A DNA stretch of 25,266 bases from a virus: positions 1-25,266 of the IMG/VR virus record IMGVR_UViG_3300037963_003835. One strand, written 5' to 3'. Made by a program: the position numbers and the translations under genes. The notes beneath the pieces are model-generated. The model saw only the letters and a list, made by a program, of their open reading frames with translations. It was not told where the DNA came from and searched no databases. Every line of letters starts with the position of its first letter. The stretch's first letter is position 1. Shown one piece after another: positions 1-16,663 of this stretch.

Positions 1-138
1 AAGATAGCACCGTGCATAGGGCATGCCTATGAATCAGATGCACGGTTAGCATGGGATAAAGTACAGTTGTGGATTCACGAGGATCAAGAATTCGTAACAT
101 ACAAAACTTATAGGGAGAGAAATGGGATTTCTATCTAA
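1..138 (+). CDS. 3' end of an unidentified gene (partial)
   Basis: The window opens inside a reading frame that runs 45 codons to a TAA at 136-138. The visible tail is polar, with aromatic residues (DKVQLWIHEDQEF), and I do not recognise a family. The frame is open from the first base, so the start lies upstream of the window. It overlaps the next small gene by 17 bases, matching the tight packing of the region. The tail alone supports no function. Confidence 0.5.
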   Translation, partial: KIAPCIGHAYESDARLAWDKVQLWIHEDQEFVTYKTYRERNGISI

Positions 139-268
139 GATAGGTAATTTTTTTATAGCGGCATTTAGGGTACAAGCGGAAAATGAGGCACGTTTGCGTG
201 GATTTTATAGAAGGGAATACACTACAGACACCGAAAATGAAGAAAAAGAAAGGGCGGATAAAGCATAA
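122..268 (+). CDS. small hypothetical protein, 48 aa
   Basis: A 48-codon frame starts with ATG at 122, four to five bases after a strong ribosome binding site (AGGGAG at 112-117), and ends with TAA at 266-268. The N-terminus (MGFLSKIGNFFIAAFRVQ) is hydrophobic and amphipathic; the rest is highly charged, rich in Arg and Glu. It could be a short membrane-associated helix followed by a soluble charged tail. No family is recognised. It overlaps the following gene whichever start that gene uses. The good ribosome binding site is the main reason to believe it. Confidence 0.5.
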   Translation: MGFLSKIGNFFIAAFRVQAENEARLRGFYRREYTTDTENEEKERADKA

Positions 269-920
269 AAGCAGAGAAGGAGAGCCAAAGCCTGTATCAA
301 TTACCCCCAGGTATGAAGATAGAGTAGGAATTCTTTTTGCTTCTGGTCCAAGTCTTACGGAAGAAGTAGTAGAAACAATCAGACCTTTTCATGAAAGTGG
401 AAAGGTGATTGCGTTCGGCTGTAACGACACTTACAGACTAGTAAATTATCTTGATGAGTTTTATGCTTGCGACAAGCATTGGTGGGATTACCATAAAGAT
501 AGATTTTTTGATGCTCGAGATATGGACAAAGCTCGACTGTGGACTCAAGATGGTGCTACAGCACAAAGTTTAGGAATAAACTTTATAAAAGGTAGATACT
601 CGAACAAGGGTCTGAGCCAAGACCCTGCTCTCATACACTTTGGTTCAAACTCAGGATTTCAGTTACTAAACATAGCCATGCTTATGGGTATTCGCAAAGC
701 TATACTAGTTGGCTACAATATGCAAAAAGTAGATACTGTAAGTCACTTTTTTGGAGATCATCCTGGTAAACTAAATAAAAACAGTCCTTATGATAAGTTT
801 AGAGATGCTTTCAAACAAATCAAAGACAATCAAAAAGAAATGATAGTTAATTGTACACCGGACTCAGCACTAAAATCATTTAGAAAAGCAGATTTATTAG
901 AGGAATTAAATTCACTATGA
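237..920 (+). CDS. DUF115/MptE-like Rossmann-type protein of a glycan cassette
   Basis: The protein has about 227 residues. Near the N-terminus it has a glycine-rich loop in the segment LFASGPSLTEE. Further features are a VIAFGCNDTYRL strand-loop, a DxxWW-type segment (CDKHWWDYH), and a central GSNSGFQLLNIA helix followed by AILVGYNM. This layout resembles the DUF115 / 6-hydroxymethylpterin pyrophosphokinase-like fold, which includes the flagellin glycosylation factor Maf. Similar phage proteins carry the uninformative label 'norphogenetic protein' (from memory). I prefer ATG 237 because it reduces overlap with the upstream small gene; ATG 183 in the same frame is the alternative and has a slightly better upstream purine stretch. 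It sits first in a run of sugar-transfer genes, so a role in glycosylation is inferred. The biochemical activity is unknown. Confidence 0.6.
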   Translation: MKKKKGRIKHKSREGEPKPVSITPRYEDRVGILFASGPSLTEEVVETIRPFHESGKVIAFGCNDTYRLVNYLDEFYACDKHWWDYHKDRFFDARDMDKARLWTQDGATAQSLGINFIKGRYSNKGLSQDPALIHFGSNSGFQLLNIAMLMGIRKAILVGYNMQKVDTVSHFFGDHPGKLNKNSPYDKFRDAFKQIKDNQKEMIVNCTPDSALKSFRKADLLEELNSL

Positions 921-1138
921 AAAACAAATTACTAAGGTACTACGGAGTTTGCCTAGGATTTATAGTACTAATCTTTTTGGCAGCCTGTGACACAACATAC
1001 ACAAAACCATTTGAGTATCCAATTCAATGCAAACCTGTAGAAATAAAATACTGTGAAGGTTTCAATACTGGGTCAATGAAATGTAGATGTATTAATCCTG
1101 ATTTTGAAACAATCGGTAGTAATTTTAGGATGGCTTAA
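917..1138 (+). CDS. predicted small lipoprotein
   Basis: This 73-residue protein starts with a positively charged MKNKLLRYY segment, then a hydrophobic stretch (VCLGFIVLIFL) ending in the lipobox LAAC, with Cys at about residue 24. That is a typical signal peptidase II site, so the mature product should be lipid-anchored in the host envelope. The mature part is short and has four further cysteines, which could form disulfides in the periplasm. It starts by ATGA overlap with the previous gene and its stop overlaps the next start (TAATG). Phage lipoproteins are sometimes superinfection-exclusion factors or lysis-related. Nothing here shows which, and exclusion is only a guess. Confidence 0.7.
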   Translation: MKNKLLRYYGVCLGFIVLIFLAACDTTYTKPFEYPIQCKPVEIKYCEGFNTGSMKCRCINPDFETIGSNFRMA

Positions 1139-1359
1139 TGCAAGTATATGTAATGGAAATACTTTCAGCGGATGTGCAAGAAACTCCAAGAATTTATGGG
1201 TTTACACCTTACAGCAATCTAGCGCATAGATGGGCAAAAGAAATAGGAAGTACAAATATAGCGCACGGAAATAGAACAACATACTACTCAGATGGAGACG
1301 ATCTTTCTAGAAGAGTGACCAAAGTTGATGAAATAGAGAAATGGGATATGGTAAAATGA
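1138..1359 (+). CDS. hypothetical protein, 73 aa
   Basis: This is a small soluble protein with no recognised domain. The sequence has several Tyr and Trp residues and a charged C-terminus (SRRVTKVDEIEKWDMVK). ATG 1138 overlaps the preceding stop as TAATG; a second in-frame ATG at 1153 is possible and would remove five residues. The stop at 1357-1359 overlaps the next gene's ATG (ATGA). Translational coupling on both sides supports it being real. It may be an accessory protein of the sugar cassette, but nothing specific can be said. Confidence 0.55.
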   Translation: MQVYVMEILSADVQETPRIYGFTPYSNLAHRWAKEIGSTNIAHGNRTTYYSDGDDLSRRVTKVDEIEKWDMVK

Positions 1360-2012
1360 TTAGAGTATTTGCAGGAACAGGAACTGGCACAGACGATTAT
1401 GAAGCTGAGATAACACTTGAACATTCTTTGAAGAAAAACTCTTCAGAGGAAGTTGAAGTAATATTTATGAGAAACGATAAAGATCCTGACAACTTTTTTG
1501 GTAACTTCAATCAAAAGGGATGGTTCACTCCATTCACAGGATTGCGCTGGGCTATATCTGAGTACTGTAACTTTGAAGGTAGAGCGATATACATGGATAC
1601 AGATCAAGTAAACTTTCGAGATATATCAGAGCTTTACAATATGGATTTACATGGTAAGCCTTTTGGTTGTAGATATAATAGACTTTGTGTTATGGTTTTT
1701 GACAATGAAAAAATGAAAGACAAAGTTCCTTCCGTATCAAAACAGAAAAAGATGGCAGGAAACTATACTGCTCAAATATACTGGACATTTTTAGGGCAGG
1801 CAGCGCACTTTGATGATAGATGGAACTGTCTTGATGGAGAAGGTAGAAAGCCAGAAGATATATATCATTTGCATTTTACTGATGTGCCAACTCAACCGTG
1901 GCAACCTCAGTGGGCAAAAGATAAAGGGCATAAACACCGCCCGCATCCTCGAAAAGACTTAGTAGAAATTTGGAAGCAATACAGGGACGAAGCTCTTGCG
2001 AATATTAATTAG
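1356..2012 (+). CDS. GT-A glycosyltransferase (GT8-like)
   Basis: About 218 residues. It has a Rossmann-like start (MIRVFAGTGT) and a DxD metal/nucleotide-sugar motif at residues 81-83 in the context RAIYMDTDQVNF. Near the C-terminus, HLHFTDVPTQPW resembles the His and PW motif that ends GT8 catalytic domains. The enzyme should transfer a sugar from a nucleotide sugar using a divalent metal; donor and acceptor cannot be read. I prefer ATG 1356, which overlaps the previous stop as ATGA; ATG 1341 in the same frame is the longer alternative. It is related in layout to the proteins at 4340 and 7265. It overlaps the next gene by 17 bases. Confidence 0.72.
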   Translation: MIRVFAGTGTGTDDYEAEITLEHSLKKNSSEEVEVIFMRNDKDPDNFFGNFNQKGWFTPFTGLRWAISEYCNFEGRAIYMDTDQVNFRDISELYNMDLHGKPFGCRYNRLCVMVFDNEKMKDKVPSVSKQKKMAGNYTAQIYWTFLGQAAHFDDRWNCLDGEGRKPEDIYHLHFTDVPTQPWQPQWAKDKGHKHRPHPRKDLVEIWKQYRDEALANIN

Positions 2013-2925
2013 TACAAAAACTCTTCTCAAGCAGAAGAGAAACAAACAAAACGAAATTTTTAGATGTTTTATGAGCATAGGCAAAGCTTGCCAAGCTCTG
2101 GGACATGAAGTAATTATGAATGACAAGATCATTACAGATGTTGATCTTGCTTTTGTCTTTGCTACACACTCTCCTAAAAATCCAACTATGGAGAGATCAC
2201 AAATAATTTTGCCTCTCAGAGAAGCAAAAGTACCCACCTTTCATATAGACTCTAGTTTCTTTGGAACTTACATTCGTAATGCTTTGAACGCTCCTGAGAC
2301 GGGTATGTTTAGAATTGGATTAAATGAGTCCACTGGAGAAGCTGATTGGTTGATAGATCATGTTAGTCACCATAGATTTGATGAGTTCAAGAGAAAGTTT
2401 AAATTCGAAGAACAATACCCCAGACTTCCAAATGATTATCCTATAATGATTCTTGGACAGCCAAATGGTAATTTTCAGTACGATGATAAAAGAACTTTTG
2501 ATACTTATGTTAAAGAAGAGATAATGCCTGTACTATTAGAAAAAACAGACAGAGTAATTATTTTTAGACAACATCCAATGGTTACAGCAAAACCAAACTT
2601 AGATGGAGTAGACTTTCAAAAAGCAGACCGTGCTAGAAGAACTTTACTAAAAGATATGCTTTACTGTAGTGCTGTAGTTACCCACAGTAGTTCGGGGGCT
2701 GTGGAAGCATTAGTGGAGGGACTACCTACTTTTGCAACAAGTCCAAGATGTATAGCATATGAAGCGTGTGGAGATTTAAATGATATTGTTGAACCTTTTG
2801 ATTGGTCAAAAAGAGAAAAAGCTATGTGGAAATGGGCACATACTACTTGGTCAATAGAAGAGTTTGCAAATCCGGAGCTGATAGATAGTTATATACAGCG
2901 AGCAAAAGACAAAGGGTATTTATGA
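1996..2925 (+). CDS. GT-B/capsule-polysaccharide-type glycosyltransferase (KpsC/KpsS-like)
   Basis: 309 residues, starting at TTG 1996 behind a GGGACGAAG stretch, inside the end of the previous gene. The C-terminal half has a pattern typical of GT-B and capsule transferases of the KpsC/KpsS kind: a RQHPM segment, then THSSSGAVEALVEGLP, a glycine/serine loop with a conserved Glu, and TFATSP. The C-terminal TWSIEEFANPE is echoed in the protein at 5542 (QWTLEEIRSGQ), so the two look like distant paralogs. The likely role is transfer of a sugar, perhaps Kdo-like or another surface sugar, onto a glycan. Donor and acceptor are unknown. The next gene starts by ATGA overlap. Confidence 0.6.
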   Translation: MRILISTKTLLKQKRNKQNEIFRCFMSIGKACQALGHEVIMNDKIITDVDLAFVFATHSPKNPTMERSQIILPLREAKVPTFHIDSSFFGTYIRNALNAPETGMFRIGLNESTGEADWLIDHVSHHRFDEFKRKFKFEEQYPRLPNDYPIMILGQPNGNFQYDDKRTFDTYVKEEIMPVLLEKTDRVIIFRQHPMVTAKPNLDGVDFQKADRARRTLLKDMLYCSAVVTHSSSGAVEALVEGLPTFATSPRCIAYEACGDLNDIVEPFDWSKREKAMWKWAHTTWSIEEFANPELIDSYIQRAKDKGYL

Positions 2926-3539
2926 AAAGAACAAAGTTCAAAAGCAGTCACTTCAAGTGGGCATGGTATGACAGAGACTTTTTCTACTCTATGGACGGCA
3001 TAGGAGAACATCCAGATCACCATTGTAAAAAGACTTGGATAGTAAGTAAACCTTTTATTACTACAGCAAGAAATGCAATAGACATAGGATGCAGAGACGG
3101 AGAATATACTAGGTATCTGATGAAAGATTTTGAGCATGTGTATTGTTTTGATTACAGAGAGCGACAGTTCTTTCCACACAATGTAGATTTAAAAAAAGTA
3201 TCTCATTATGAGTGTGCTTTGGGAAACGAAAGCAAGACAATAAAAGCAAGTGGAAGAGGCAGAATAGATAAGCAAGTAGCCAAAAGAGGCTACAAAGTAC
3301 GACAGTATACACTAGATGAGTTTGAACTAAAAGATATTGATTACATAAAAATTGATGTTGATGGGTACGAAGAAAAAGTTTTGAAAGGATCTCACAATAC
3401 CATTGAAGAGTACAATCCTATACTAGTGCTGGAAGCAGAGAATGGAGACTTACGAGGCATACACTATTGTCAAAAGTTTTTTGGGTACAAACCTCAAGCT
3501 TGGGATGATAAGCACAGAAATGTGGTAATGACAAAATGA
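2922..3539 (+). CDS. FkbM-family SAM-dependent methyltransferase
   Basis: 205 residues. The AdoMet-binding motif I is AIDIGCRDGEYT (about residues 52-63), followed by an acidic strand end at VYCFDYRE. The FkbM hallmark comes later: YTLDEF then IDYIKIDVDGYEEKVLKG (about 129-156) and a strand with NPILVLEAE. FkbM enzymes O-methylate sugars or polyketides. Next to six glycosyltransferase-type genes, the likely substrate is a sugar hydroxyl on the glycan made by this cassette. The N-terminal 45 residues are basic and aromatic without a recognised domain. It overlaps both neighbours by ATGA. Confidence 0.85.
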   Translation: MKRTKFKSSHFKWAWYDRDFFYSMDGIGEHPDHHCKKTWIVSKPFITTARNAIDIGCRDGEYTRYLMKDFEHVYCFDYRERQFFPHNVDLKKVSHYECALGNESKTIKASGRGRIDKQVAKRGYKVRQYTLDEFELKDIDYIKIDVDGYEEKVLKGSHNTIEEYNPILVLEAENGDLRGIHYCQKFFGYKPQAWDDKHRNVVMTK

Positions 3540-4255
3540 AAATACACTGGTTATTTGATGTGGACGGCACATTGACACCCCCAAGAGAAAAGATGAATGA
3601 AGAGTTTCAGGAATGGTTTAGAGGCTTTATGCTTAAAAACTCAGTGTATTTAGTAACAGGAAGTGATTATTCAAAAACTATACAACAGTTAGGAACTCAC
3701 ATATGTGAATTTGTAAATGCAGTATACTGTTGTTCTGGAAACGATAAAAAGGTTAATGCAACAACAATTAGAAAATTTGATTGGGAACTGCCAGACCTAG
3801 CAAGTATCTTTTTAAAACTTGCACTTGTTGATAGTGAGTATCCTATCAGAACTGGAAACCATATAGAGCAAAGACAGGGCAGCATAAATTTTAGTATTGT
3901 AGGTAGAAATGCAAACCTTGAACAAAGAAAACACTATTTTGAATATGATAAAACAACTGGGGAAAGACAAAAGATTGTAGATGAGTTTCAAGAATTATTT
4001 CCAGACTTAGATGCAGTTATCGGAGGAGAGACAGGAATAGACATCTATCCTTCAGGAAAAGATAAATCTCAAATAATAAATGATTTCTCTGTAAATGACC
4101 ACACAATATTTTTTGGAGATAAAATATTTCCAGGAGGTAACGACTACACACTATCATTACAAGTTGATAGTTCTATACAAGTAGATGGGTGGCAAGATAC
4201 ATGGGATAAGATACGCCTCGTTGAGGATATTATGGAGGAGATGTATGACGGGTGA
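3536..4255 (+). CDS. eukaryotic-type (HAD) phosphomannomutase
   Basis: 239 residues, close to the usual size of about 245 for this family. HAD motif I is LFDVDGTLT, with Asp8 as phosphoryl acceptor and Asp10 as acid/base. The segment RQGSINFSIVGRN (113-125) and the following EQRKHYFEYDK match the PMM signature with its substrate-binding Arg and Asn. The C-terminal part has GGETGIDIYPSGKDK (163-177) and FFGDK...PGGND (192-203), the metal-binding HAD motif. The expected reaction is mannose-6-P to mannose-1-P, the precursor of GDP-mannose. This fold is unrelated to the usual bacterial ManB mutase. A phosphomannose isomerase-like gene lies at 16250. It overlaps the next small gene by 11 bases. 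Confidence 0.85.
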   Translation: MKIHWLFDVDGTLTPPREKMNEEFQEWFRGFMLKNSVYLVTGSDYSKTIQQLGTHICEFVNAVYCCSGNDKKVNATTIRKFDWELPDLASIFLKLALVDSEYPIRTGNHIEQRQGSINFSIVGRNANLEQRKHYFEYDKTTGERQKIVDEFQELFPDLDAVIGGETGIDIYPSGKDKSQIINDFSVNDHTIFFGDKIFPGGNDYTLSLQVDSSIQVDGWQDTWDKIRLVEDIMEEMYDG

Positions 4256-4343
4256 CGGACAAGAATTAATGGCATGGGTTTTAGCAGTAGGCCTAATATT
4301 ATGGTTAGTAAGGGTTTTATATGATCCGAGGGGTAAAAAATGA
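4245..4343 (+). CDS. single-span membrane microprotein, 32 aa
   Basis: This is a 32-codon gene with a near-perfect ribosome binding site (GGAGGAG at 4234-4240) four bases before ATG 4245. Its TGA at 4341-4343 overlaps the next gene's ATG (ATGA). The product has a short acidic N-terminus, one hydrophobic helix (MAWVLAVGLILWLVRVL) and a basic tail ending RGKK, so it should insert with the tail in the cytoplasm. No family is recognised. The strong translation signals make it one of the better supported tiny genes here. It may help anchor the neighbouring glycosyltransferases, but that is inference. Confidence 0.65.
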   Translation: MTGDGQELMAWVLAVGLILWLVRVLYDPRGKK

Positions 4344-5089
4344 AAGTATTTATTGGTTGGGATAGTAGAGAACAAATTGCTTATCAAGTAGCAAAGTACT
4401 CTATACGAAAGTATAATAAAGAGGTAGAAATTATACCCATCAAACAGCATGAGTTGAGAAACAAAGGAATTTATACTAGGCCAGAAGATGCTTGGGGCTC
4501 TACTGAGTTTTCACTTACTCGATTTTTAACTCCGTATTTAGCCAACTACGAAGGTATGGCAGTCTTTATGGATTGTGACGTGTTGGTTCAAACAGACATA
4601 GAAAGTATACTTGATGATATTGATATGCGTAATGTTGTTAGTTGTGTAAAGCATGACTATACTCCGTACACTCACAAGAAGATGGACGGAAAAGTACAAC
4701 ACGTTTATCCTAGAAAGAATTGGTCTTCTGTTATGGTTTTTAACTGTAAAGAATGTGATATTTTGCAACCAAGTAGTGTAAATGTTAGGGCTCCTAAATA
4801 TTTGCACAGAATGGAATGGGCTAGAGAGAAGATTGGTTCTTTACCTCATACTTGGAATTATCTAGCAGGATACTATGATGATATTGAAAAGCCTAACGTC
4901 ATACATTATACAGACGGTGGGCCTTGGTTTGAGAATTATAAGTTTTGTCCTATGGCAAAAGAGTGGGAAGATATGAAGGATGAAATGCTTTCTCTTCCTG
5001 CTGACTTTAAACAAAGACAGAGAAGTATGACAGAACTAAATTGGGATGGTAATGACACAAGAGGTAGGTATGGAGAAGACGAATCGTAA
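4340..5089 (+). CDS. GT-A glycosyltransferase (GT8-like)
   Basis: 249 residues. The N-terminal MKVFIGWDSREQIAYQVAKYS is the typical first strand of GT8-like enzymes. A conserved DxD is present as DCD at 78-80 in AVFMDCDVLVQTD, and a conserved NVIHYTDGGPWF follows near residue 195. The enzyme should use a nucleotide-sugar donor with a divalent metal to extend a glycan. The C-terminus (from about 215) is charged and probably flexible. It starts by ATGA overlap with the membrane microprotein and overlaps the next small gene by 20 bases. Donor specificity cannot be told from sequence. Confidence 0.78.
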   Translation: MKVFIGWDSREQIAYQVAKYSIRKYNKEVEIIPIKQHELRNKGIYTRPEDAWGSTEFSLTRFLTPYLANYEGMAVFMDCDVLVQTDIESILDDIDMRNVVSCVKHDYTPYTHKKMDGKVQHVYPRKNWSSVMVFNCKECDILQPSSVNVRAPKYLHRMEWAREKIGSLPHTWNYLAGYYDDIEKPNVIHYTDGGPWFENYKFCPMAKEWEDMKDEMLSLPADFKQRQRSMTELNWDGNDTRGRYGEDES

Positions 5090-5186
5090 GCCTTGGTACA
5101 TGAAACCAACAGCACAAGAGCAGAAAAAAGCTCATAAAGAAGAACTAAACGATGTACAAAAACTAATAAAGAAAATGATGAAATGA
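5070..5186 (+). CDS. small basic hypothetical protein, 38 aa
   Basis: A 38-codon frame begins at ATG 5070 just after GAGGTAGG and ends with TGA at 5184-5186, overlapping the next ATG (ATGA). The product is lysine-rich (TNRKPWYMKPT, then a predicted helix EEQ/K-rich to KKMMK). It lacks hydrophobic or catalytic features and no family is recognised. Overlap with both neighbours and the upstream GAGG support translation. An adaptor role or a simple coupling peptide are both possible. Confidence 0.45.
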   Translation: MEKTNRKPWYMKPTAQEQKKAHKEELNDVQKLIKKMMK

Positions 5187-5545
5187 AGAAAACAATAATA
5201 TGTGATATTGATGGTACAATATTTGATTATCCGCCAAGTGGTTCTGCACATATTTTTCATAAAGTAAGACTATTGCCAGGAGTACTAGAGAGATTTGCTA
5301 AATGGGAAGCTACAGGACACAATATTATACTTATTACTGGTAGAAGAGAAAGCCTGAGAAAGAGAACAGAAGCATCTTTGATTCGTCATGGAATAGCTTT
5401 TGACCAGTTAATTATGGGTTGTGCAGATACAGGAAGAGTACTAATCAATGACAATAGCCATGAAGGTACAGTCAAAGCTCATGCGGTAGCTTTAGTACGA
5501 GATGATGGAATGGATAACTTTAACTGGGAAGAAGTAGGATTATGA
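5183..5545 (+). CDS. small HAD-superfamily phosphatase
   Basis: 120 residues. HAD motif I is CDIDGTIF (catalytic Asp8 and Asp10). Motif II is probably in LITGRRES (about 51-57), and a late acidic strand is VLINDNS. There is no large cap domain, so this is a minimal HAD resembling those found next to capsule or LPS genes. It probably removes phosphate from a sugar phosphate or similar small molecule in the cassette. It is not close to the phosphomannomutase at 3536 beyond the shared fold. It overlaps both neighbours by ATGA. Confidence 0.7.
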   Translation: MKKTIICDIDGTIFDYPPSGSAHIFHKVRLLPGVLERFAKWEATGHNIILITGRRESLRKRTEASLIRHGIAFDQLIMGCADTGRVLINDNSHEGTVKAHAVALVRDDGMDNFNWEEVGL

Positions 5546-6318
5546 AACCAGTAGTATTGTGTACTTTTAGCGGTAGAAATGTTCCTCTAGCAAGAGCTTT
5601 TTCTTCTGGCTGTAAATCAAGAATAGTAGATGTACAAGAATTCAATGCTAAGAGTATGCCGAGCATAGCATCTTATGGAGTGTTGAGAGGCACTGCTGAA
5701 TGTTTTAAACAAGCAGAAGAGTTTTGGTATATGGATCACGGCTATCTTGGTGGGTCTGAGGATTTTTGGAGAGTAACTAAGAATGAAGTGATACACAGTG
5801 GGCGGGGTCAATACCCCACGGATAGACTTCAACAGTTCAATCTCAAGTTTGAGCCTTGGAAGAAAACAGGTAAGTACATAGTCTTGAGCCCTCCAAGTGC
5901 ACCTCAAAGAAAGTTTTTAGAAATAGAAAACTGGCTTGAGGACACCATACTAAATATACGAAAGCATACCGATAGAGAGATAATACTGAGTAGAAAACCT
6001 CTCAAGCATAAGAATGGAAAGCCTAAGAAACTTGAAGCCCTGCCGGAGATTGCAAAATCTTTACGAGTAATTCCCTTTGGAGAAGCAGTTCATGATGCGT
6101 GGACAGTCATAACGGATCATTCTCGAGTAATGAATGATGCGTTATGCCTTGGTGTGCCTATAATTTGTACTAACAGAAATCGACAGATAGGTTCGATAGA
6201 AAGTATCGAATCTCCAGAATACATTGATAGAGAAGAGTTTTTTGCAGCTCTATCATATAATCAATGGACACTCGAAGAAATACGAAGTGGACAAGCATGG
6301 AGAGAATTGAATGGATAG
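5542..6318 (+). CDS. GT-B/capsule-type glycosyltransferase-like protein
   Basis: 258 residues. The N-terminus MKPVVLCTFSGRNVPLARAF looks like a Rossmann first strand and helix. The middle has YIVLSPPSAPQRKF and EIILSRKP, and the C-terminal half has AWTVITDHSRVMNDALCLGVPIICT, the position where GT-B capsule enzymes carry their donor-binding loop with a small-residue/Glu pattern. The final QWTLEEIRSGQAW matches the C-terminus of the protein at 1996. In this copy the Ser-Gly-Glu residues of that loop are changed to SRVMNDAL, so its activity or donor may differ. It starts by ATGA overlap. The call rests on similarity to its neighbour and on context. Confidence 0.5.
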   Translation: MKPVVLCTFSGRNVPLARAFSSGCKSRIVDVQEFNAKSMPSIASYGVLRGTAECFKQAEEFWYMDHGYLGGSEDFWRVTKNEVIHSGRGQYPTDRLQQFNLKFEPWKKTGKYIVLSPPSAPQRKFLEIENWLEDTILNIRKHTDREIILSRKPLKHKNGKPKKLEALPEIAKSLRVIPFGEAVHDAWTVITDHSRVMNDALCLGVPIICTNRNRQIGSIESIESPEYIDREEFFAALSYNQWTLEEIRSGQAWRELNG

Positions 6319-6475
6319 ACAAGTAAAAGACTGGATTAATTTTTGGGCTCTTGAGATGAGAAACCCCCACAATGATGGTTTTACAGCTCAGATGTATAGA
6401 GATAAACTGGTAGAGATAAAAGAATATATAAATATGCAACTAGAAACTGCTCCAACTTTTGTCGGAGACGATTGA
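6311..6475 (+). CDS. small hypothetical protein, 54 aa
   Basis: A 54-codon frame from ATG 6311 (eight-base overlap with the previous stop) to TGA 6473-6475, which overlaps the next gene's ATG (TGATG). The product is helical and amphipathic, with aromatic residues near the start (KDWINFWALEM) and a second helix (YRDKLVEIKEYINMQLE). No family is recognised. It fills the gap between two glycosyltransferase genes exactly, which is the main support. It also carries the ribosome binding site (GGAG at 6463-6466) for the following gene. Confidence 0.55.
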   Translation: MDRQVKDWINFWALEMRNPHNDGFTAQMYRDKLVEIKEYINMQLETAPTFVGDD

Positions 6476-7272
6476 TGGGAATGGGCGATGAGATCATGGC
6501 AACTGGTATTGCAAAGAAGCTTCACGCTGAAACAGGCGCAAAAGTTGCTTTTGGCAATCCAAAAGGACAGTTGAAACCCAACATATATCCTGCCATGCAC
6601 GCTCATAACCCAAAGATAATTAAGAATGAAGAAGAGTTGAGAGAAGCAGAAAAAGTTGTGTGGGACTCTTACTGTAAAGGAAACAGAACTTACATAGCAA
6701 ATATAACAACTGCAAAGAAAGAAAAAAGATATAAGTGGAACTATGACTTCAAAGCATTGCCAGGAGAGTTTTTCTATACGTCAGAGGAGTTAAAGAAGTA
6801 TAAAAACAATGCAGTAAAAGAAAAGTATATAGTTGTAGAACCACACTCAAAACAAGGTGGAGCAGCAGATAACAAGCAGTGGATTTGGAAAAGATTCCAA
6901 GAAGTAGTAAACATACTATCAAAAGATATAAAAGTGTATCAACCACACTACGGAAAACCACAACTAAAAAATACAACGCCTGTAATTAGTAAAGGTTTGA
7001 GAATGTTATCTTTGTTTTTAAAAGATTCAGCTGCTTTTCTTTGTAATGAAGGAGGAGTTCATCACACAGCAGCCACAGTAGAAGCAAAGGGTGTAGTAAT
7101 ATTTGGAGGCTTTATTCCTCCAGAAATAACAGGATACGACTTTCACACAAACTTATTTACAGGAGGAGAGGCTTGTGGTTCTAGATACTCTTGTAAGCAC
7201 TGCAAGGCTGCTATGGAAGCAATAGGAGTTGATGAAGTAGTAGAACACATGAGGAAAATAATAGATGTATAA
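6475..7272 (+). CDS. GT9-family glycosyltransferase (heptosyltransferase-like)
   Basis: 265 residues. It begins with MGMGDEIMATGIAKKL, matching the GxGDxxxxT start of GT9 LPS heptosyltransferases. A central strand (YIVVEPHSKQGG) precedes NKQWIWKRFQEVV, like the conserved region where GT9 enzymes bind the ADP-heptose phosphate. Near the C-terminus, LCNEGGVHHTAATVEAKGVVIFGG matches the GGxxHxAA nucleotide-sugar loop. It should transfer a heptose or related sugar from an NDP-sugar. It starts with ATG 6475, eight bases after GGAG. At under 270 residues it is shorter than cellular heptosyltransferases (about 320-350). The nucleotidyltransferase at 8379 could make its donor. Confidence 0.75.
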   Translation: MGMGDEIMATGIAKKLHAETGAKVAFGNPKGQLKPNIYPAMHAHNPKIIKNEEELREAEKVVWDSYCKGNRTYIANITTAKKEKRYKWNYDFKALPGEFFYTSEELKKYKNNAVKEKYIVVEPHSKQGGAADNKQWIWKRFQEVVNILSKDIKVYQPHYGKPQLKNTTPVISKGLRMLSLFLKDSAAFLCNEGGVHHTAATVEAKGVVIFGGFIPPEITGYDFHTNLFTGGEACGSRYSCKHCKAAMEAIGVDEVVEHMRKIIDV

Positions 7273-7984
7273 TGTATTTACAACATTTGGGCCACAACAC
7301 CAAAAATTATACGGTAAAAACTTTGTTGAGACTTTTATCAGAAACTGGCCTGAAGAAGTACACTTGTATGTGTACTATGAAAAAGATGGTTTTGTAGAGA
7401 ACGAAAGAGTACACTGGTTAGATTATCATACAGAATGTCCTGGTCAAGCTGACTTTCAGTATAGAAATAAACATATAGAACAAGATTCCTTTTATAAAGG
7501 AGCTACTAGGTTTTCGTACAAAGCATTTGCTTGGATTCATCACTTAGAAAAAAGACTAGATAGATATAATATATGGCTAGATGCAGATATTATAACAACA
7601 AAACCAATTCCTTATGATTGGTTGAAGAAGGTACACAAAGAAGATCACGCGATTACAGCTTTGATGAGGCATAAAACTTATCATGCAGAAACAGGATTTG
7701 TATTGTTTGATAACTCTATGGAGCATTTCAATATATTTTTAGAACACTACAAAGATTTTTATGAAAGAGATTTATTATTTAAACTACCACAATGGCATGA
7801 TGCTTACATTTTTACAGTAATAGCACACGACATGGTAAAAGAAGATGATTTAAAAATACTAAATCTATCAGGAGATTTAAACTGGCATCCATTCGTAACT
7901 GGTATACTAGGCGAATATATGGATCATTTAAAAGGAGAGAGAAAGAGATTTGGATTTTCAAAAGAAAGGAAGAGGTGGACTTAA
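7265..7984 (+). CDS. GT-A glycosyltransferase with DxD motif
   Basis: 239 residues. A DAD motif at 106-108 lies in NIWLDADIITTKPIP, after FSYKAFAWIHHLEKRL, the usual arrangement of a GT-A metal site. A middle strand (AETGFVLFDNS) probably covers the acceptor region. The C-terminal 30 residues are very basic (GERKRFGFSKERKRW), which may give membrane or nucleic acid contact. The product should transfer a sugar from a nucleotide donor; donor and acceptor are unknown. It overlaps the previous gene by 8 bases and the next by one (TAATG). This is the third GT-A enzyme of the cassette. Confidence 0.68.
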   Translation: MYNVFTTFGPQHQKLYGKNFVETFIRNWPEEVHLYVYYEKDGFVENERVHWLDYHTECPGQADFQYRNKHIEQDSFYKGATRFSYKAFAWIHHLEKRLDRYNIWLDADIITTKPIPYDWLKKVHKEDHAITALMRHKTYHAETGFVLFDNSMEHFNIFLEHYKDFYERDLLFKLPQWHDAYIFTVIAHDMVKEDDLKILNLSGDLNWHPFVTGILGEYMDHLKGERKRFGFSKERKRWT

Positions 7985-8382
7985 TGAAGGCAGGTAAAGT
8001 ATGGGGTGAAACAGAATTAATTCATGCAAACGGAGTACTAGAGTTTCACAGAATACAAACAGTAAAAGGTGGGGTATGCTCAAAGCATATGCACGGTTTT
8101 AAATGGAATGGATTTTTTGTTGAGAAAGGAAAGCTACTGATAAGAGTATGGAAAAATGATTATGATTTAGTTGATGAGACTGTCTTAGAAAACGGAGACT
8201 TTACTCAAGTAAAGCCAGGAGACTTTCATCAATTTGAAGCACTCGAAGATACTATAGCTTTTGAACTGTATTGGGCTGAGTTTGATCATAATGATATCAT
8301 CAGAGAAAGCGTAGGTACTATGAAGATATTTAACGGAGACCCTGAAAGAGATCCTACTAATAAACAATACTTAGTACGATGA
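7984..8382 (+). CDS. cupin-domain protein, likely sugar-related
   Basis: 132 residues with a single double-stranded beta-helix. Likely metal ligands are in CSKHMHGFKWNGFFVEKG, giving an HxH pair, and in VKPGDFHQFEA, giving a later His. This short cupin type is common beside sugar-nucleotide and LPS genes, where it acts as an isomerase or epimerase or binds a sugar ligand. I chose ATG 7984, eight bases after GAGG and overlapping the previous stop as TAATG, over an in-frame GTG at 7975. It precedes the nucleotidyltransferase by ATGA overlap, so it may act in making that enzyme's substrate. The exact reaction is not readable. Confidence 0.7.
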   Translation: MKAGKVWGETELIHANGVLEFHRIQTVKGGVCSKHMHGFKWNGFFVEKGKLLIRVWKNDYDLVDETVLENGDFTQVKPGDFHQFEALEDTIAFELYWAEFDHNDIIRESVGTMKIFNGDPERDPTNKQYLVR

Positions 8383-8861
8383 GTAAAGCAACCAACATAG
8401 CAGACTGGAGAGACTCCTCTCCTATATACACAGTAGCTTTGGTAACAGGAGGATTCGATCCTGTACATTCTGGGCATGTAGCTTTGATGAGAGAAGCTAA
8501 AGAATTTGGAGATGAGTTATGGGTGGGAGTAAACTCTGATAGTTGGTTATCGAGAAAGAAAGGAAAACCTTTCATGTGCCTAGAAGAGCGTATGGTAGTA
8601 GTGTCCTCAATCAGATATGTGAGCAAAGCTTTAGACTTATTTGATAAAGATGATACCGCAAATCATCTTATACAGTTTGTACTCGATACTACAAACTATA
8701 ATATTGTATTCGCTAACGGAGGTGATAGAGCAAAAGGCAACACTCCTGAGTATATGACCTATCATAAGAATCCTAGAGTTGAATTTGCTTGGGGAGTTGG
8801 TGGCTCGGAGAAAATGAACAGTAGTAGCAAAATACTAGATGACTGGAAAAATAGTCCTTGA
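8379..8861 (+). CDS. cytidylyltransferase-like (HIGH-type) nucleotidyltransferase
   Basis: 160 residues. The core GGFDPVHSGHVALM (24-37) contains the HxGH catalytic motif (HSGH, 30-33) of the nucleotidyltransferase superfamily that includes RfaE/HldE C-terminal and TagD enzymes. Further conserved features are WVGVNSDSWLSRKKGKPF, the EERM segment, a FANGGD strand and, near the end, NSSSKILDDW, close to the ISTT-like nucleotide loop. It should join NMP or AMP from an NTP to a phosphorylated sugar or alcohol. A heptose-1-phosphate adenylyltransferase role would pair well with the GT9 enzyme, but this is inference. Its stop codon lies inside the -35 box of the next promoter, marking the likely end of the cassette. 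Confidence 0.75.
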   Translation: MSKATNIADWRDSSPIYTVALVTGGFDPVHSGHVALMREAKEFGDELWVGVNSDSWLSRKKGKPFMCLEERMVVVSSIRYVSKALDLFDKDDTANHLIQFVLDTTNYNIVFANGGDRAKGNTPEYMTYHKNPRVEFAWGVGGSEKMNSSSKILDDWKNSP

Positions 8862-8886
8862 CATTCGACCTCAATGCTTGTATAAT
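8858..8886 (+). promoter_or_regulatory. consensus sigma-70 promoter P1
   Basis: TTGACA at 8858-8863 and TATAAT at 8881-8886 are separated by exactly 17 bases, a perfect consensus promoter. Transcription should start near 8893, about 20 bases before the ATG at 8913. The -35 box contains the stop codon of the preceding gene. It separates the glycan cassette from the next unit. Confidence 0.88.
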
Positions 8887-8912
8887 AATTAGTGAAATCG
8901 GAAAAGGTAGAT

Positions 8913-9509
8913 ATGAATCTTTTTTATTTAGACGAAGACATTGACAAGTGTGCAGAATATCACGTTGACAAGCATATTGTCAAAATGCAATTAGAAGCTG
9001 CACAGCTTATCACTACAGCTCTATGGGTAGACCATGCGTTGGGCTATGTTCCTAGAGCACTCAATAAAGAAGAACGGAGAGTTATAGACGATGAGAAAGT
9101 GACACTCAAAAATCTAGACATGAGAGATCGAGCTATCTCTCCGTACCTTCCTTCTTTTTACAATCATCCCTGTAGTATATGGGTAAGAACATCCTTAGAT
9201 AACTTTGAGTGGACTTACGCTTATGTCAGTGCTCTGAACTCAGAATATGGGTACAGGTATGGTGGCAAGAGCCACAAATCTGCAGAAGTTGTCAATCAAC
9301 TACAGGAACCAAAAAACCTACCAAGACTAGGGTTGACTCCTCATGCGCAAGCAATGCCAGATGAATTGAAGAGACAAGATGCAATACTTGCATACAGAGA
9401 CTTCTATATGCTGGATAAAGCTGTGTTCGCTTCATGGAAGCACAGAGATAGACCTAACTGGTGGGATGATTCAATAGCAGACTATGAGAGGAGAATAAGC
9501 GGAAGATGA
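8913..9509 (+). CDS. conserved phage protein of unknown function with HVDKHxVKM motif
   Basis: 198 residues. The start is MNLFYLDEDIDKCAEYHVDKHIVKM, giving a dense His/Asp/Lys motif at residues 17-25 that suggests a metal or phosphate site. A second conserved region reads SFYNHPCSIWVRTSLDNFEW, then EYGYRYGGKSHKSAEV, and near the C-terminus APxLP-like text is replaced by TPHAQAMPDE. I recognise the pattern as recurring in large marine phages without a known function. I chose ATG 8913, after AAAGG, rather than GTG 8892, because the promoter P1 would put the transcript start near 8893. It is the first gene after P1 and is joined to the zinc ribbon gene by ATGA. Confidence 0.7.
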   Translation: MNLFYLDEDIDKCAEYHVDKHIVKMQLEAAQLITTALWVDHALGYVPRALNKEERRVIDDEKVTLKNLDMRDRAISPYLPSFYNHPCSIWVRTSLDNFEWTYAYVSALNSEYGYRYGGKSHKSAEVVNQLQEPKNLPRLGLTPHAQAMPDELKRQDAILAYRDFYMLDKAVFASWKHRDRPNWWDDSIADYERRISGR

Positions 9510-9664
9510 GCGAAGAGCTTCCACCTCCCGAATGGAGACAAAACAAACCTATGTGTCCTCTTTGTAAATCACACTTAGTGCATGAAGATGACTTCTATGA
9601 CTGTGATTACTGTGGATACTTATGGGTTGGCACAAATGACTTTCCAAAGTATGTGGCTCAATGA
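9506..9664 (+). CDS. small zinc-ribbon protein, 52 aa
   Basis: 52 codons from ATG 9506 (ATGA overlap) to TGA 9662-9664, which itself overlaps the next ATG. The product has two CxxC knuckles, CPLC at 17-20 and CDYC at 33-36, spaced as in zinc ribbons, followed by GYLWVG. Small zinc ribbons of this kind bind nucleic acids or proteins and occur in phage transcription or replication factors. No other domain is present. Complete start/stop coupling on both sides supports it. A role with the helix-turn-helix protein next to it is possible but not shown. Confidence 0.72.
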   Translation: MSEELPPPEWRQNKPMCPLCKSHLVHEDDFYDCDYCGYLWVGTNDFPKYVAQ

Positions 9665-10299
9665 AGAGAGGCACAAAAAAGAAAAGTCATGAGAATCTAA
9701 CAGACAGTAACATCAAGAATGTTATTTCTTTGTTAGAAGCAGAAAAGCCAATAACTAAAAAAGAAGCGTGTGATATACTAAATATATCATACAATACCAC
9801 TCGACTAAATAAAATTATAGAAGAGTGGAAAGAGAATCAAGAGTATAGAGCAAGAAGAAAAGCTGAGAAGCGAGGCAAACCAGCCAGTGATTCTGAGATT
9901 TCTAATGTAGTTGAAAGTTACTTAGAAGGAGACAGCATATCAAATATAGCAAAAAGACTTTTCAGATCTTCTATATTCGTAAAAAATATTATACAAAGAG
10001 TGGGTGTACCTGAGAAGGGAGATGGTAACTATTCAATAGCAACCTATCTACCTGACGAATGTGTAGCCGAAGACTTCTCTGATAATGAGACAGCTTGGTC
10101 GGCCATATACGACTCACCTTGTATTATAGTTAAAAAATGGAAAGATAGTAGTGATGGTTCAAAAGTATACCATATATATGTAAAACAAGAATCAGAACTA
10201 TATCCAGGAATGGCGGGGTTTTACGCATATTCAGCAGCATACGACCTAGGCAAACTAGAACACCTAAAAAGCTATGGAGTGAACACTGAACGACTATGA
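9661..10299 (+). CDS. putative DNA-binding protein with two helix-turn-helix regions
   Basis: 212 residues. The first helix-turn-helix candidate is TKKEACDILNISYNTTRLNK (about 33-52) and the second is DSISNIAKRLFRSSIFVKNI (about 91-110), separated by a basic linker (ARRKAEKRGKP). The C-terminal half (about 115-212) is a separate alpha/beta domain with VYHIYVKQESE, without recognised homology. The layout suggests a sequence-specific phage regulator, possibly acting on the promoters in this window. It overlaps both neighbours by ATGA. Base composition matches its neighbours, so recent transfer is not indicated. Confidence 0.55.
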   Translation: MKRGTKKKSHENLTDSNIKNVISLLEAEKPITKKEACDILNISYNTTRLNKIIEEWKENQEYRARRKAEKRGKPASDSEISNVVESYLEGDSISNIAKRLFRSSIFVKNIIQRVGVPEKGDGNYSIATYLPDECVAEDFSDNETAWSAIYDSPCIIVKKWKDSSDGSKVYHIYVKQESELYPGMAGFYAYSAAYDLGKLEHLKSYGVNTERL

Positions 10300-10538
10300 T
10301 AGAACTATACGCAATATTTTGTTTGACAACGGCACTGACGTTGTTTATAACAGTGCAGTTTCCAATCTTTATGGCAGAAAAGCCTAAAGATGCACCTATG
10401 CTTGGAGTGATAACATTTTGGTTGACTACTGCAGGAGTAAGTGTAGTATGTGCACCTTTGATGTTTGCATTTATTTTTTCACCCCACATCTATGCAGAAA
10501 AGTTTGGAAATGCAGTTAGAAATCTTGGTCAATATTAA
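10296..10538 (+). CDS. two-span membrane protein, 80 aa
   Basis: 80 residues with two predicted membrane helices: LYAIFCLTTALTLFITVQF (about 4-22) and a longer one over LGVITFWLTTAGVSVVCAPLMFAFIF (about 36-61). The linker MAEKPKDA carries positive charge and would probably stay in the cytoplasm. No family is recognised. It starts by ATGA and ends by TAATG overlap. Small two-helix proteins in phages can be lysis or exclusion factors; there is no partner lysis gene nearby, so no function is assigned. Confidence 0.6.
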   Translation: MIELYAIFCLTTALTLFITVQFPIFMAEKPKDAPMLGVITFWLTTAGVSVVCAPLMFAFIFSPHIYAEKFGNAVRNLGQY

Positions 10539-10621
10539 TGGGCTATAGATTTTACACACAACAATTAGAAGCGACAGGTAATTGTCCTGGAGCACCACTA
10601 ACCAACAGGAGAAAGAGAAAA

Positions 10622-10987
10622 ATGGCTTGGACAGATGAGTCACGACAGCAGGCAATCGAAGCATATGAAGCGGCTGGACCAACTCCAGAAAACTCAATGG
10701 AGATAGTCAAACAGATTGCAGAGGATATGGGAGAGAGTCCTAACGGAGTTAGAATGATTCTCACAAAAGCAGAAGTATATGTAAAGAAAGCTCCTGCAGA
10801 AGGCAAATCCTCTTCTAGTTCCAGCAATGGAGGAGGCACTAGAGTAAATAAAGAGTCGGCTCAACAAGCTCTGATAGCGGCTCTTACTGATGCTGGTGGA
10901 GAGATTGATGAAGACATCATCTCTAAGTTGACCGGCAAGGCAGCAGTTTATTTCACTACGGAAATAAATAAAATCTTAGACAAGTAG
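10622..10987 (+). CDS. small DNA-binding protein with one WTDE/HTH repeat and Ser-rich linker
   Basis: 121 residues from ATG 10622, which follows AGGAG; an in-frame ATG at 10538 would add 28 residues and is coupled to the previous stop. Residues 1-50 (MAWTDESRQQAIEAYEA..., then IVKQIAEDMGESPNGVRMIL) form a helix-turn-helix unit that resembles the repeats of the protein at 14071. A Ser/Gly-rich linker (GKSSSSSSNGGG) follows, then a helical C-terminal domain ending TTEINKILDK. I infer a DNA-binding or nucleoid role. Codons have more C and G in the third position than the neighbours, a sign of strong expression. A double hairpin follows the stop. Confidence 0.6.
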   Translation: MAWTDESRQQAIEAYEAAGPTPENSMEIVKQIAEDMGESPNGVRMILTKAEVYVKKAPAEGKSSSSSSNGGGTRVNKESAQQALIAALTDAGGEIDEDIISKLTGKAAVYFTTEINKILDK

Positions 10988-11065
10988 TAATGCGGGCATA
11001 GCCCGCGCTTACTGTCCATTACTGCGGCAAAAGAGGTTTTGCGCAAAGTAATAGGAGCTGTAAGC
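10988..11065 (+). promoter_or_regulatory. intergenic double hairpin before the GTG-started gene
   Basis: Two hairpins lie between the genes. The first pairs GCGGGC (10992-10997) with GCCCGC (11001-11006) around an ATA loop, without a U-run after it. The second pairs GCAAAA (11027-11032) with TTTTGC (11037-11042) and carries the purine tetraloop GAGG, a Shine-Dalgarno-like sequence, and can be extended by further GC pairs with one bulge. The first could be an attenuator or RNA-processing site. The second could control access to a ribosome binding site. Both readings are inference. Confidence 0.45.
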
Positions 11066-11332
11066 GTGAGAAAAGAAGAACTAAGAAGAGTGCTGACTGA
11101 GCAAGGCGACTCTGTAATAACTTATAAGAGTGCCAACTCAGGTAAAACAAAATATAATGTCTGTACGCTAGATTTCGATACTCCTTATATTCAGCAGAAA
11201 AGGAATCGAGCAAAAGACGACGATGAAACGCTTTTAATGTTCTGTTGGGACACGGATAGTTATCGGCTTATGAAAGCTAAGAATGTACTATCCGTTGTCC
11301 CATTATCATCTATCCTCAAGAATGAGAGGTAG
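11066..11332 (+). CDS. hypothetical small beta-rich protein (DUF2693-like)
   Basis: 88 residues from GTG 11066, eight bases after AGGAG (11053-11057). An in-frame TTG at 11039 would add nine residues but has worse spacing. The protein pairs a short N-terminal helix with a beta-rich domain (VITYKSANSGKTKYNVCTLDF, then ETLLMFCWDTDSYRLMKAKNVL). This resembles phage proteins of the DUF2693 type, which have a CTLD-like strand followed by a WD strand, but I am unsure. It lies downstream of the double hairpin. No enzyme motif is visible. Confidence 0.5.
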   Translation: MRKEELRRVLTEQGDSVITYKSANSGKTKYNVCTLDFDTPYIQQKRNRAKDDDETLLMFCWDTDSYRLMKAKNVLSVVPLSSILKNER

Positions 11333-11334
11333 AT

Positions 11335-11613: not shown

Positions 11614-11616
11614 ATC

Positions 11617-13264: not shown

Positions 13265-13267
13265 TTC

Positions 13268-14922: not shown

Positions 14923-16253
14923 ATATTTCCAGTGTCCTACTAAAACAAGTAATCGCCAACAGCGATATAGATACTTGGGGAGACTGTCAGCAACATTATT
15001 TTCCCTCCGAATATCATTCAATACACAGTGCCATAGGAAGGTATGTAACTGACTATGGCCGTCTTCCAACTTTTGATGACTTACAGTTATCGATAAGAGA
15101 TTCCGCACTCAGAGATAAGTTTTCTGCAATAGAAACGGTTGATCTAATAGAGATCGAACCAAATATTCTGCTTGAGTATTTGAAAAATGAGTATACTCAA
15201 TCAGAGATAATGGGTCAACTTGAAAAGTACCTAGAAAATTCTATTGCTATGGAATCTGCAAAGGAGAATATTGACTCTCTTCAAAACATAGTTCTAGACC
15301 TAGAAACTAAGATTGACCTGAGAGATCCTGAAGAAAATATGCAGAAGATGCCATTATTTGATTCTACGGATGATATGGAGAGAAGTATATCTCTTGGGCT
15401 AAATTCAGACTACGACAATGTTGTTCGATTTAGTCCAACGGATATGGTTCTTATTGGAGGAAGAAGAGGGGCTGGAAAGTCCTTCACCTGCTCTAATATT
15501 GCATCAAATACTTTTGATGCAGGAGATTCAGTAATATATTTTACAATAGAAATGACATCTCGACAGATAATGCAAAGATGCTGTTCTGTGTCAACTGGTG
15601 TGCCAATTAATGCCTTGAGAAATAGAAATCTATCTATCGGGGAGTGGCAACTAGTAGCAGAGTGGTGGGCAAACAGATTTGAGGATGGAGAACACGCTTT
15701 TAGAGAATATCTAACTCATAGAGACTTTGATAAGTATCATTCTGAACTTACAGTAAAACCACTACGAGAACGTCAGTTAGATATAGTTTATGATCCTACA
15801 CTTACAATAGGAAATATAAGAACAGAACTTGATAAAAAAGTATCTACACTAAAACCTAAAGTAGTTATTGTAGACTATGTAAACCAAGTAAAAAGAGCTG
15901 CTGTATCTAACAGTAGAATGGGACAGTATGATTGGACAGAACAAATAGAAGTAAGTAAGTCACTGAAAGCTATGGCTCAAGACTACGGAGTGGTTATGAT
16001 TTCTCCGTATCAAACGGATGCCACAGGAGAAGCTAGATTTGCAAAAGGTATTCTTGATGCCGCAGATACTGCATTTGCTTTAGATGCACATCAAAAAGAA
16101 GACAATGCAATCACTTTCAAATGTGTAAAGATGAGAAACGGTGAAGAAACTGACTTTACTTCAACAATGGATTGGGCTACTCTAAAGATAGGCCCAGAGA
16201 CAGGAAGAATACAGACGGAGGAGGAATCAGATGAAGATCCCTATGATATATGA
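14919..16253 (+). CDS. replicative DNA helicase, DnaB/RecA-like
   Basis: 444 residues. An N-terminal helical region (1-140) precedes the ATPase core. Walker A is GGRRGAGKS (180-188), the DnaB-type EM motif is IYFTIEMTSRQIMQR, and Walker B is in PKVVIVDYVNQVKR (around 320). A late conserved GVVMISPYQ and DAADTAFAL follow, and the C-terminus is acidic. It should form the hexamer that unwinds DNA at the fork with the primase at 17186. It starts with TTG 14919 five bases after GGAGGG, and the next gene starts by ATGA overlap. The N-terminal domain is unlike that of typical DnaB, as in other phage helicases. Confidence 0.9.
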   Translation: MNISSVLLKQVIANSDIDTWGDCQQHYFPSEYHSIHSAIGRYVTDYGRLPTFDDLQLSIRDSALRDKFSAIETVDLIEIEPNILLEYLKNEYTQSEIMGQLEKYLENSIAMESAKENIDSLQNIVLDLETKIDLRDPEENMQKMPLFDSTDDMERSISLGLNSDYDNVVRFSPTDMVLIGGRRGAGKSFTCSNIASNTFDAGDSVIYFTIEMTSRQIMQRCCSVSTGVPINALRNRNLSIGEWQLVAEWWANRFEDGEHAFREYLTHRDFDKYHSELTVKPLRERQLDIVYDPTLTIGNIRTELDKKVSTLKPKVVIVDYVNQVKRAAVSNSRMGQYDWTEQIEVSKSLKAMAQDYGVVMISPYQTDATGEARFAKGILDAADTAFALDAHQKEDNAITFKCVKMRNGEETDFTSTMDWATLKIGPETGRIQTEEESDEDPYDI

Positions 16254-16663
16254 GTGACCATCATTTAGGACAGGTAGTTGTTAGACCTTGGGGCCAATAT
16301 CAAGTTATTGGTCAAGGTTTTGGTTTTTACTCTGCATCTTCTCATATGTACAAAATTAAAACCATTACTATAGAGCCTGGCAAGTCTATAAGTTTACAGT
16401 ATCATCTTCATAGAAAAGAAATATGGACTGTGCTACATGGAGCCGGTAAAGCAAAGATAGGTGGTGAGAAGAAAATAATATTAGAAGGAGATACAGTGAC
16501 TGTGCCTGTGGGAGTAGTGCATAAACTTTCCAATCCGGGTAAAACTAAACTAATAATTTTGGAATCTCAAATGGGCTCTTACTGCGAAGAAGATGATATA
16601 GTAAGACTTAATAAGCCCACAGAAGTAGTAAAGCCCGATGAACTACCTGAGGAGAAAAAATAA
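16250..16663 (+). CDS. type II phosphomannose isomerase-like cupin
   Basis: 137 residues. RPWGQY (12-17), PGKSISLQYHLHRKEIW (43-59), then VPVGVVHKLSNPGK (85-98) and DDIVRL match the C-terminal isomerase domain of bifunctional type II enzymes. Probable metal ligands are His52, His54, Glu57 and His91. The expected reaction is fructose-6-P to mannose-6-P. The guanylyltransferase half of the bifunctional enzyme is absent. With the phosphomannomutase at 3536 it would supply mannose-1-P. It is oddly placed between helicase and primase. It starts by ATGA overlap with the helicase, so it should share the replication transcript. Confidence 0.85.
   Translation: MSDHHLGQVVVRPWGQYQVIGQGFGFYSASSHMYKIKTITIEPGKSISLQYHLHRKEIWTVLHGAGKAKIGGEKKIILEGDTVTVPVGVVHKLSNPGKTKLIILESQMGSYCEEDDIVRLNKPTEVVKPDELPEEKK

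Follow-up and report, generated by a model that had tools for sequence, protein, structure and literature searches.

Which molecule receives the sugars handled by a phage glycan operon is the question raised by IMG/VR virus record IMGVR_UViG_3300037963_003835, a stretch of 25,266 bases, truncated on the left, from a T5-related marine phage that is uncultured; it was analysed as a whole and is called the window here. From 237 to 8861 (8.6 kb) it holds a single-strand (+) run of genes (a and c to m in Table 1) for two GT8-like glycosyltransferases (GTs), one further GT-A enzyme, a KpsC-fold protein and its relative, a GT9 enzyme and an FkbM methyltransferase, together with an alpha-phosphomannomutase (PMM), a HAD phosphatase, a cupin, a HIGH-type nucleotidyltransferase, the Maf-related gene a and small open reading frames (ORFs). 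A first-pass annotation had described this region as a compact, co-oriented glycan cassette, and its ORFs, strand and coordinates were reproduced. It had left the target open among the virion, the host surface and a small molecule; comparative context places virion proteins first. With a probability of about one half, the cassette would add a short, methylated chain of sugars to virion proteins of the phage itself.

Three features read from sequence point to a virion target: the Maf-like character of gene a, the repeated placement of homologues among virion-assembly genes, and the lack of visible lipid-linked machinery. Gene a, whose start at 237 is consistent with its homologues, matches phrog_4603 (E 6e-31), a PHROG family named alpha-2,3-sialyltransferase. 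Against PF01973 the window copy scores 13.7 bits and the 46%-identical copy of the T5-like relative G007 scores 37.8 bits, for a Pfam cut-off of 34.6; judged by these comparisons, gene a is kin to PF01973. This family is the Maf_flag10 domain, which resembles the sialyltransferase Cst-II, and Maf enzymes perform the O-glycosylation of flagellin Ser/Thr residues and can use 3-deoxy-D-manno-octulosonic acid (Kdo) (PMC11339370). The likeness to the Maf flagellin O-glycosyltransferases lies in this family membership, carried by the G007 copy, but gene a products have about 210–230 amino acids and correspond to the central domain only. A profile search of the PDB with gene a gave chance matches only and did not recover Cst-II.

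Relatives of gene a were found in 69 records at E 1e-3. The homologue in D3 (orf7) lies between the genes for the major head protein and the head–tail adaptor, that in PAJU2 downstream of the head closure gene, that in Tetraselmis virus S20 inside the head operon, and that in P1, which is pmgO, in or beside virion-assembly genes. In CcrColossus and in a Brevundimonas phage it stands between tail and lysis genes. Other members of the kit are found in similar surroundings: homologues of FkbM and gene g stand between capsid and head genes in podovirus ctDrO704, and a TibC-like gene, gene k, a methyltransferase and a KpsC/S-like gene adjoin TerL in ct7QV12.

CcrColossus (Caulobacter, Dolichocephalovirinae) carries homologues of a, the two KpsC/S-like genes, GT8 (gene g) and GT9 in one block, in the order tail, a, two KpsC/S-like, GT8, small ORF, GT9, lysis; in its kin C1 and OP620777, an FkbM-annotated gene lies under or beside the GT9 match. 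However, CcrColossus is a jumbo siphovirus with its block between tail and lysis genes, and no PMM, k, cupin or nucleotidyltransferase match was detected in the region examined. In Mosig, homologues of FkbM, k, g and the two KpsC/S-like genes occur together, but this phage is T4-like, and no match to a, PMM or GT9 was detected in the region examined. P1 and D3 share the gene a homologue, and P1 pmgQ is annotated as a glycosyltransferase, although the gene sets of pmgO–pmgQ and orf7 are far smaller. The virion glycosylation of mycobacteriophages (Freeman 2023, as cited in PMC12619734) would have the same biological role; there it was shown by experiment, whereas for the window cassette it is predicted.

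Regarding the third feature, no initiating lipid transferase, flippase, polymerase or export gene was recognised among the window genes scanned for families or read as ORFs, in a window that is truncated on the left and belongs to a phage whose host could supply them. The transferases of the cassette have no membrane span. Furthermore, the predicted fold of gene k resembles, among other GT-A enzymes, the capsid glycosyltransferase of PBCV-1.

The T5-like affiliation proposed at first is borne out by a replication module that runs rightward from ~8.9 kb in T5 order (D2, D3, ligA, ligB, D5, DnaB-like D6, primase, polymerase, D10, D11, D12), with a polymerase 44–45% identical to that of T5 and 44–46% identical to those of T5-like phages. 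Scans with the polymerase gave 37 viral loci. Among the relatives, G007 (91.8 kb) has both of its ends inside D5, the start at residue 120 and the end at residue 118, and is therefore regarded as a closed circle. T5-like portal, TerL, capsid and tail homologues are encoded in G007, and T5-like structural proteins also in G005; the T5 A1 pre-early gene, oad and ltf gave no tblastn match in G007 or G005, for which divergence or missing sequence may be responsible. The first-pass annotation had described T5 itself as free of such sugar genes, in agreement with the lack of any annotated glycosyltransferase in T5 and of any cassette protein or profile match in T5 or the compared segment of the Vibrio phage PG07.

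The comparison of gene content with T5-like relatives, suggested by the first-pass annotation, revealed sugar-related genes at the same site in every record that reaches it (6/6: the window, G007, G001, G002, G003 and G005), in mixes that differ. G007 has a (46%), c (57%), g (65%), k (56%) and the cupin (52%), plus an FkbM and two other methyltransferases; G001 has gene a, a sulfotransferase and FkbM; G002 and G003 have gene g, with a weak GT29 match beside it in G002; and G005 has a KpsC-like protein. PMM, GT9 and the nucleotidyltransferase were not found in the cassettes of these five relatives. A glycan-enzyme operon sits at a fixed, hypervariable site in this clade of T5-like marine phages.

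The family labels given initially to the cassette enzymes were upheld by Pfam profile matches (GT8, FkbM, PMM, GT9 and HAD, with weak Cupin_2 and CTP_transf_like matches) and by the folds of k and i. Gene c (ORF 1341–2012, with an ATG at 1356 favoured by homologues) matches GT8 with E 4.9e-5 and 23.5 bits, just below the cut-off of 24.3, and is 57% identical to its G007 counterpart. Gene g exceeds the same cut-off (PF01501, E 1.9e-6, 28.1 bits), keeps both Asp residues of its DxD motif invariant across the alignment, shares 65% identity with its G007 counterpart and has profile matches to WbbM, GlyE and glycogenin. Curated cut-offs are also exceeded by gene e (PF05050, E 2.5e-11; TIGR01444, 44.4 bits vs. 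37.7) and by gene j (PF01075, 25.4 bits vs. 22), which is 31–32% identical to the GT9 of Caulobacter phages. Gene f matches PF03332 (E 1.4e-27, above the curated cut-off) and solved PMMs (E 7e-30), with the DVDGT and GDK..GGND motifs aligned, and gene h was matched to the HAD family by profile search. For gene l, Cupin_2 (E 2.6e-5) and TIGR04366 (E 1.4e-4) both stay under their cut-offs, and the G007 copy is 52% identical. Gene m has a weak CTP_transf_like match and would act on a substrate of the phosphoheptose, glycerol-3-phosphate or ethanolamine-phosphate type.

Gene k has no Pfam match, and a profile search of PDB sequences gave one match at chance level only. Its AlphaFold2 model (predicted local distance difference test, pLDDT, 84.9) has a GT-A fold, with Z 14.5 to a GT6 enzyme and Z ~13 to GlyE, LARGE1, WbbM, LgtC, glycogenin and the PBCV-1 capsid glycosyltransferase. 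The family carries a near-invariant YMDHLKG motif (YLDHLKG in G007), and we know of no characterised member. The family is described as mainly viral and not as restricted to viruses, since genome G117 holds four copies on contigs C57 and C77 (L175), which may be phage or bacterial. The lone "bacterial" contig from the gene k scan is 88% identical to a phage contig (L045); the peptide patterns used for the viral and bacterial scans differed slightly. In addition, the gene k relative on contig C57 adjoins a KpsC/S-like ORF.

The AlphaFold2 model of gene i (pLDDT 83.8) shows a KpsC fold, with KpsC as the best match (Z 11.1, 231 residues aligned) and WbbB as the next, and gene d aligns with the same KpsC/KpsS family. 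Genes d and i differ from the Kdo transferases KpsC, KpsS and WbbB in that the catalytic Asp is not aligned: in a profile alignment, on which this outcome depends, the KpsC nucleophile Asp160 falls on Pro121 of gene i and Gly158 of gene d. Because these residues occupy the Asp160 position, Kdo transfer by d and i cannot be assumed from the sequence. An Asp is kept at this position in some other phage homologues (e.g., L048:8985–9995).

Several genes had escaped the first-pass annotation: gene a, the lipoprotein at 917–1138, the small ORFs at 1138, 4185 and 6311, and, outside the cassette, a mannose-6-phosphate isomerase (MPI)-type cupin at 16250–16663. The latter matches PF01050 (E 3.6e-31) and the C-terminal part of TIGR01479 (E 1.4e-30, below the whole-protein cut-off of that model). 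It forms the mannose branch of the window together with the PMM. No GDP-mannose pyrophosphorylase was identified in the window and there is only one nucleotidyltransferase; sugar donors must therefore come from the host or from genome parts beyond the sequenced stretch. The original statement that the genes are enough to make and attach a methylated sugar chain thus holds for the enzyme families and overreached on sufficiency, with no complete sugar-nucleotide pathway visible. The presence of PMM and MPI-type enzymes, and the MPI genes known in cyanophages (PMC9602691), would fit a block whose main role is metabolic and draws off hexose phosphates, with glycan transfer only incidental. This explanation is very unlikely, since the transferases outnumber the sugar-phosphate enzymes and the relatives keep transferases with no PMM found in them. 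Cupin, HAD and nucleotidyltransferase genes occur in small-molecule pathways too, and the cassette could instead act on a small molecule, on a host protein or on a glycoconjugate destined for secretion. Such a non-virion target is unlikely: seven transferase-like proteins and one methyltransferase suit an oligosaccharide better, and no scaffold-making enzymes, such as polyketide synthases or nonribosomal peptide synthetases, were found among the window genes.

If virion proteins are the target, the MPI-type cupin, PMM, HAD phosphatase, nucleotidyltransferase and cupin would make more activated sugars available, with host enzymes doing part of the work. In the cytoplasm, gene a would then set the first sugar on Ser/Thr residues of a protein that the phage encodes, much as bacterial Maf enzymes do on flagellin, the GT8, GT-A, GT9 and KpsC-fold enzymes would lengthen the chain, and FkbM would cap it with a methyl group. 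The likeliest acceptor would be at least one tail or capsid protein of the phage itself, and as the gene content shifts, so would the coat glycan from phage to phage.

The expression signals of this site bear on when such enzymes would act. Sigma-70 matches of 12/12 were found at 8858–8886 and 16665–16693 of the window and in none of 60 Markov shuffles of it, and a match of at least 11/12 stands just ahead of the pyrimidine-dimer-glycosylase gene in all six records. A consensus scan of positions 1–8857 yielded no match of at least 11/12, and the cassette would be a separate transcription unit with its own promoter to the left of the window. In G007 and G001, a further 12/12 match lies ahead of an hsp20-like gene that precedes gene a (L068:3644–4129 in G007, with a similar ORF, L071, in G001).

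Several observations weigh against virion decoration. The cassette is not located among the structural genes in this clade; a 12/12 sigma-70 promoter stands upstream of it in G007 and G001, and promoters of this kind occur at higher density away from the structural genes, which suggests early expression of the cassette. The homologues in Eowyn and DLP_6 do not adjoin recognised structural genes (the neighbours in Eowyn being unrecognisable), the Mosig kit lies near ribonucleotide reductase and RuvC genes, and the window copy of gene a falls below the PF01973 cut-off. Moreover, the GT-A fold matches include many enzymes with lipid or glycan acceptors, a 73-residue lipoprotein lies within the operon, and no acceptor was observed. 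P1 pmgO and pmgQ are not essential (PMC10695390), a dispensability that fits decoration and is no proof of function.

Some of these points would fit a cassette that remodels a host surface glycan (lipopolysaccharide (LPS) core, O-chain or capsule) early in infection and blocks the adsorption of competing phages, perhaps with the lipoprotein. This possibility is substantial, although less probable than an acceptor on the virion. GT8, GT9, RfaE-like and KpsC-like families are typical of LPS and capsule pathways; the LPS-related cassettes of pelagimyophages and cyanophages (Mosig, S-SCSM1), with GT8 and RfaE-type genes, have been read as modifying the host O-chain (PMC7029224, PMC9602691), with the GT8-rich pelagimyophage cassettes interpreted in this way by the published authors (PMC7029224). 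The early-type promoters of G007 and G001, the lipoprotein in the operon and the proximity of the S-SCSM2R gene g homologue to KdsA/KdsB genes point in the same direction. Against it stand the Maf-like character of gene a, the position of homologues within virion-assembly operons in several lineages, the non-conserved KpsC nucleophile, and a window in which neither a lipid-initiating transferase nor a flippase or polymerase was identified. The lipoprotein has no relative in the compared stretches of G001–G003, G005 and G007, nor does ORF 1138–1359 among the compared T5-like records; a role of this lipoprotein in superinfection exclusion is only a guess.

A thymidylate-synthase-family protein, from the family of the dCMP and dUMP hydroxymethylases, was found in none of the seven records (including circular G007), with positive controls, the window itself being a fragment. 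A Tet_JBP search was uninformative, as its controls gave no match. The first of these results argues against the glycosylation of hypermodified phage DNA by the cassette enzymes, the least probable explanation considered here, even if modified DNA bases can serve as acceptors for glycosyltransferases of phages (Pyle 2024, as cited in PMC12619734).

Beyond this clade, it can tentatively be proposed that T5-like phages, T4-like pelagiphages, Caulobacter jumbo phages, podophages and D3- and P1-type phages share a portable, phage-specific virion O-glycosylation kit (a, g, k, KpsC-fold and FkbM) that has spread among them and gives each a different coat glycan, and that P1 PmgO/PmgQ could be its laboratory representative. 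Glycan cassettes are already known in T4-like marine phages; among the matches listed for genes a, g, f, j and k, there is no cultured T5-like phage. If the virion target is true, glycans on phage coats would occur much more broadly than in the few cases proven so far, and the as yet unexplained P1 pmgO/pmgQ and D3 "sialyltransferase" genes would gain a function that can be tested directly in laboratory strains.

Concerning the integrity of the locus, most cassette neighbours overlap by 1–19 bases, with a larger overlap for one small ORF, and the sole gap of more than 30 bases (93 bases) precedes 5183. Two near-identical contigs, L040 and L004, cover most of the cassette or the right part of the window. 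The cassette is not a single-record assembly artefact, because L040, near-identical to the window across about 1732–15580, covers most of it. Chance was rejected as a source of the assignments, as several families score above curated thresholds and unrelated phages carry this kit as well. Near-identity DNA searches of cultured phages gave no match to the window, and a viral scan with gene a as the sole query found no relative and did not extend the left end. Contig L034 (1–5105) is ~59% identical to the window in DnaB and 99–100% identical from the MPI-type cupin onward, a switch that reflects either a sharp recombination junction or a chimeric assembly.

Table 1. Features of the glycan cassette and its surroundings, in window coordinates.
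Feature	Position	Strand	Assignment or basis
Gene a	237..920	+	Maf_flag10/MptE-like (PF01973) putative glycosyltransferase; related to P1 PmgO, D3 orf7
Putative lipoprotein, 73 aa, lipobox LAAC, Cys-rich, hydrophobic N-terminus	917..1138	+	Sequence
ORF, 73 aa	1138..1359	+	ORF list
Gene c, GT8-like GT-A glycosyltransferase, DxD "YMDTD"	1356..2012	+	Pfam GT8 match, G007 homologue
Gene d, KpsC/KpsS-like GT-B protein, HP motif kept	1996..2925	+	Family alignment
Gene e, FkbM-family methyltransferase	2922..3539	+	PF05050, TIGR01444
Gene f, eukaryotic-type (HAD) alpha-phosphomannomutase	3536..4255	+	PF03332, solved PMMs
ORF, 52 aa, one hydrophobic segment	4185..4343	+	ORF list
Gene g, GT8-like glycosyltransferase, DxD "FMDCD"	4340..5089	+	PF01501
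Gene h, small HAD phosphatase	5183..5545	+	Profile matches
Gene i, KpsC-fold protein, KP in place of HP motif	5542..6318	+	AlphaFold2 model, alignment
ORF, 54 aa	6311..6475	+	ORF list
Gene j, GT9 (heptosyltransferase-like)	6472..7272	+	PF01075
Gene k, GT-A glycosyltransferase, mainly viral family	7265..7984	+	AlphaFold2 model, near-invariant YMDHLKG motif
Gene l, WbuC-like cupin	7975..8382	+	Weak Cupin_2, TIGR04366
Gene m, HIGH-type nucleotidyltransferase (RfaE domain II / glycerol-3-phosphate cytidylyltransferase-like)	8379..8861	+	Weak CTP_transf_like
Sigma-70 consensus promoter, 12/12, TTGACA-17-TATAAT, 3' end of cassette	8858..8886	+	Consensus scan
Pyrimidine-dimer-glycosylase-like gene, probable start 8913, first of replication block	8892..9509	+	Profile matches
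Type II mannose-6-phosphate isomerase-type cupin carrying an SxQxH motif; flanked by the DnaB helicase and primase genes	16250..16663	+	PF01050

Some further observations were made in the relatives. G007 contains a permuted transfer-messenger RNA (tmRNA) at L067:11772–12115 (~71.8–72.1 kb; RF04321, 94.9 bits; alpha_tmRNA, 60.3 bits) that encodes the tag peptide ANDEVYDLAIAA. This RNA hints at a host among the Alphaproteobacteria, but its tag matched no bacterial genome in the genome collection, and the host cannot be named by this means. The polymerase gene of G005 is split by ~1.07 kb (L031:11729–12793) containing a homing-endonuclease-like open frame of 280 residues, probably an intron or an intein. 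Finally, a T5orf172-domain gene, a probable GIY-YIG endonuclease, lies at 12902–13264 of the window between the two ligase subunit genes, a placement that is kept in several relatives.

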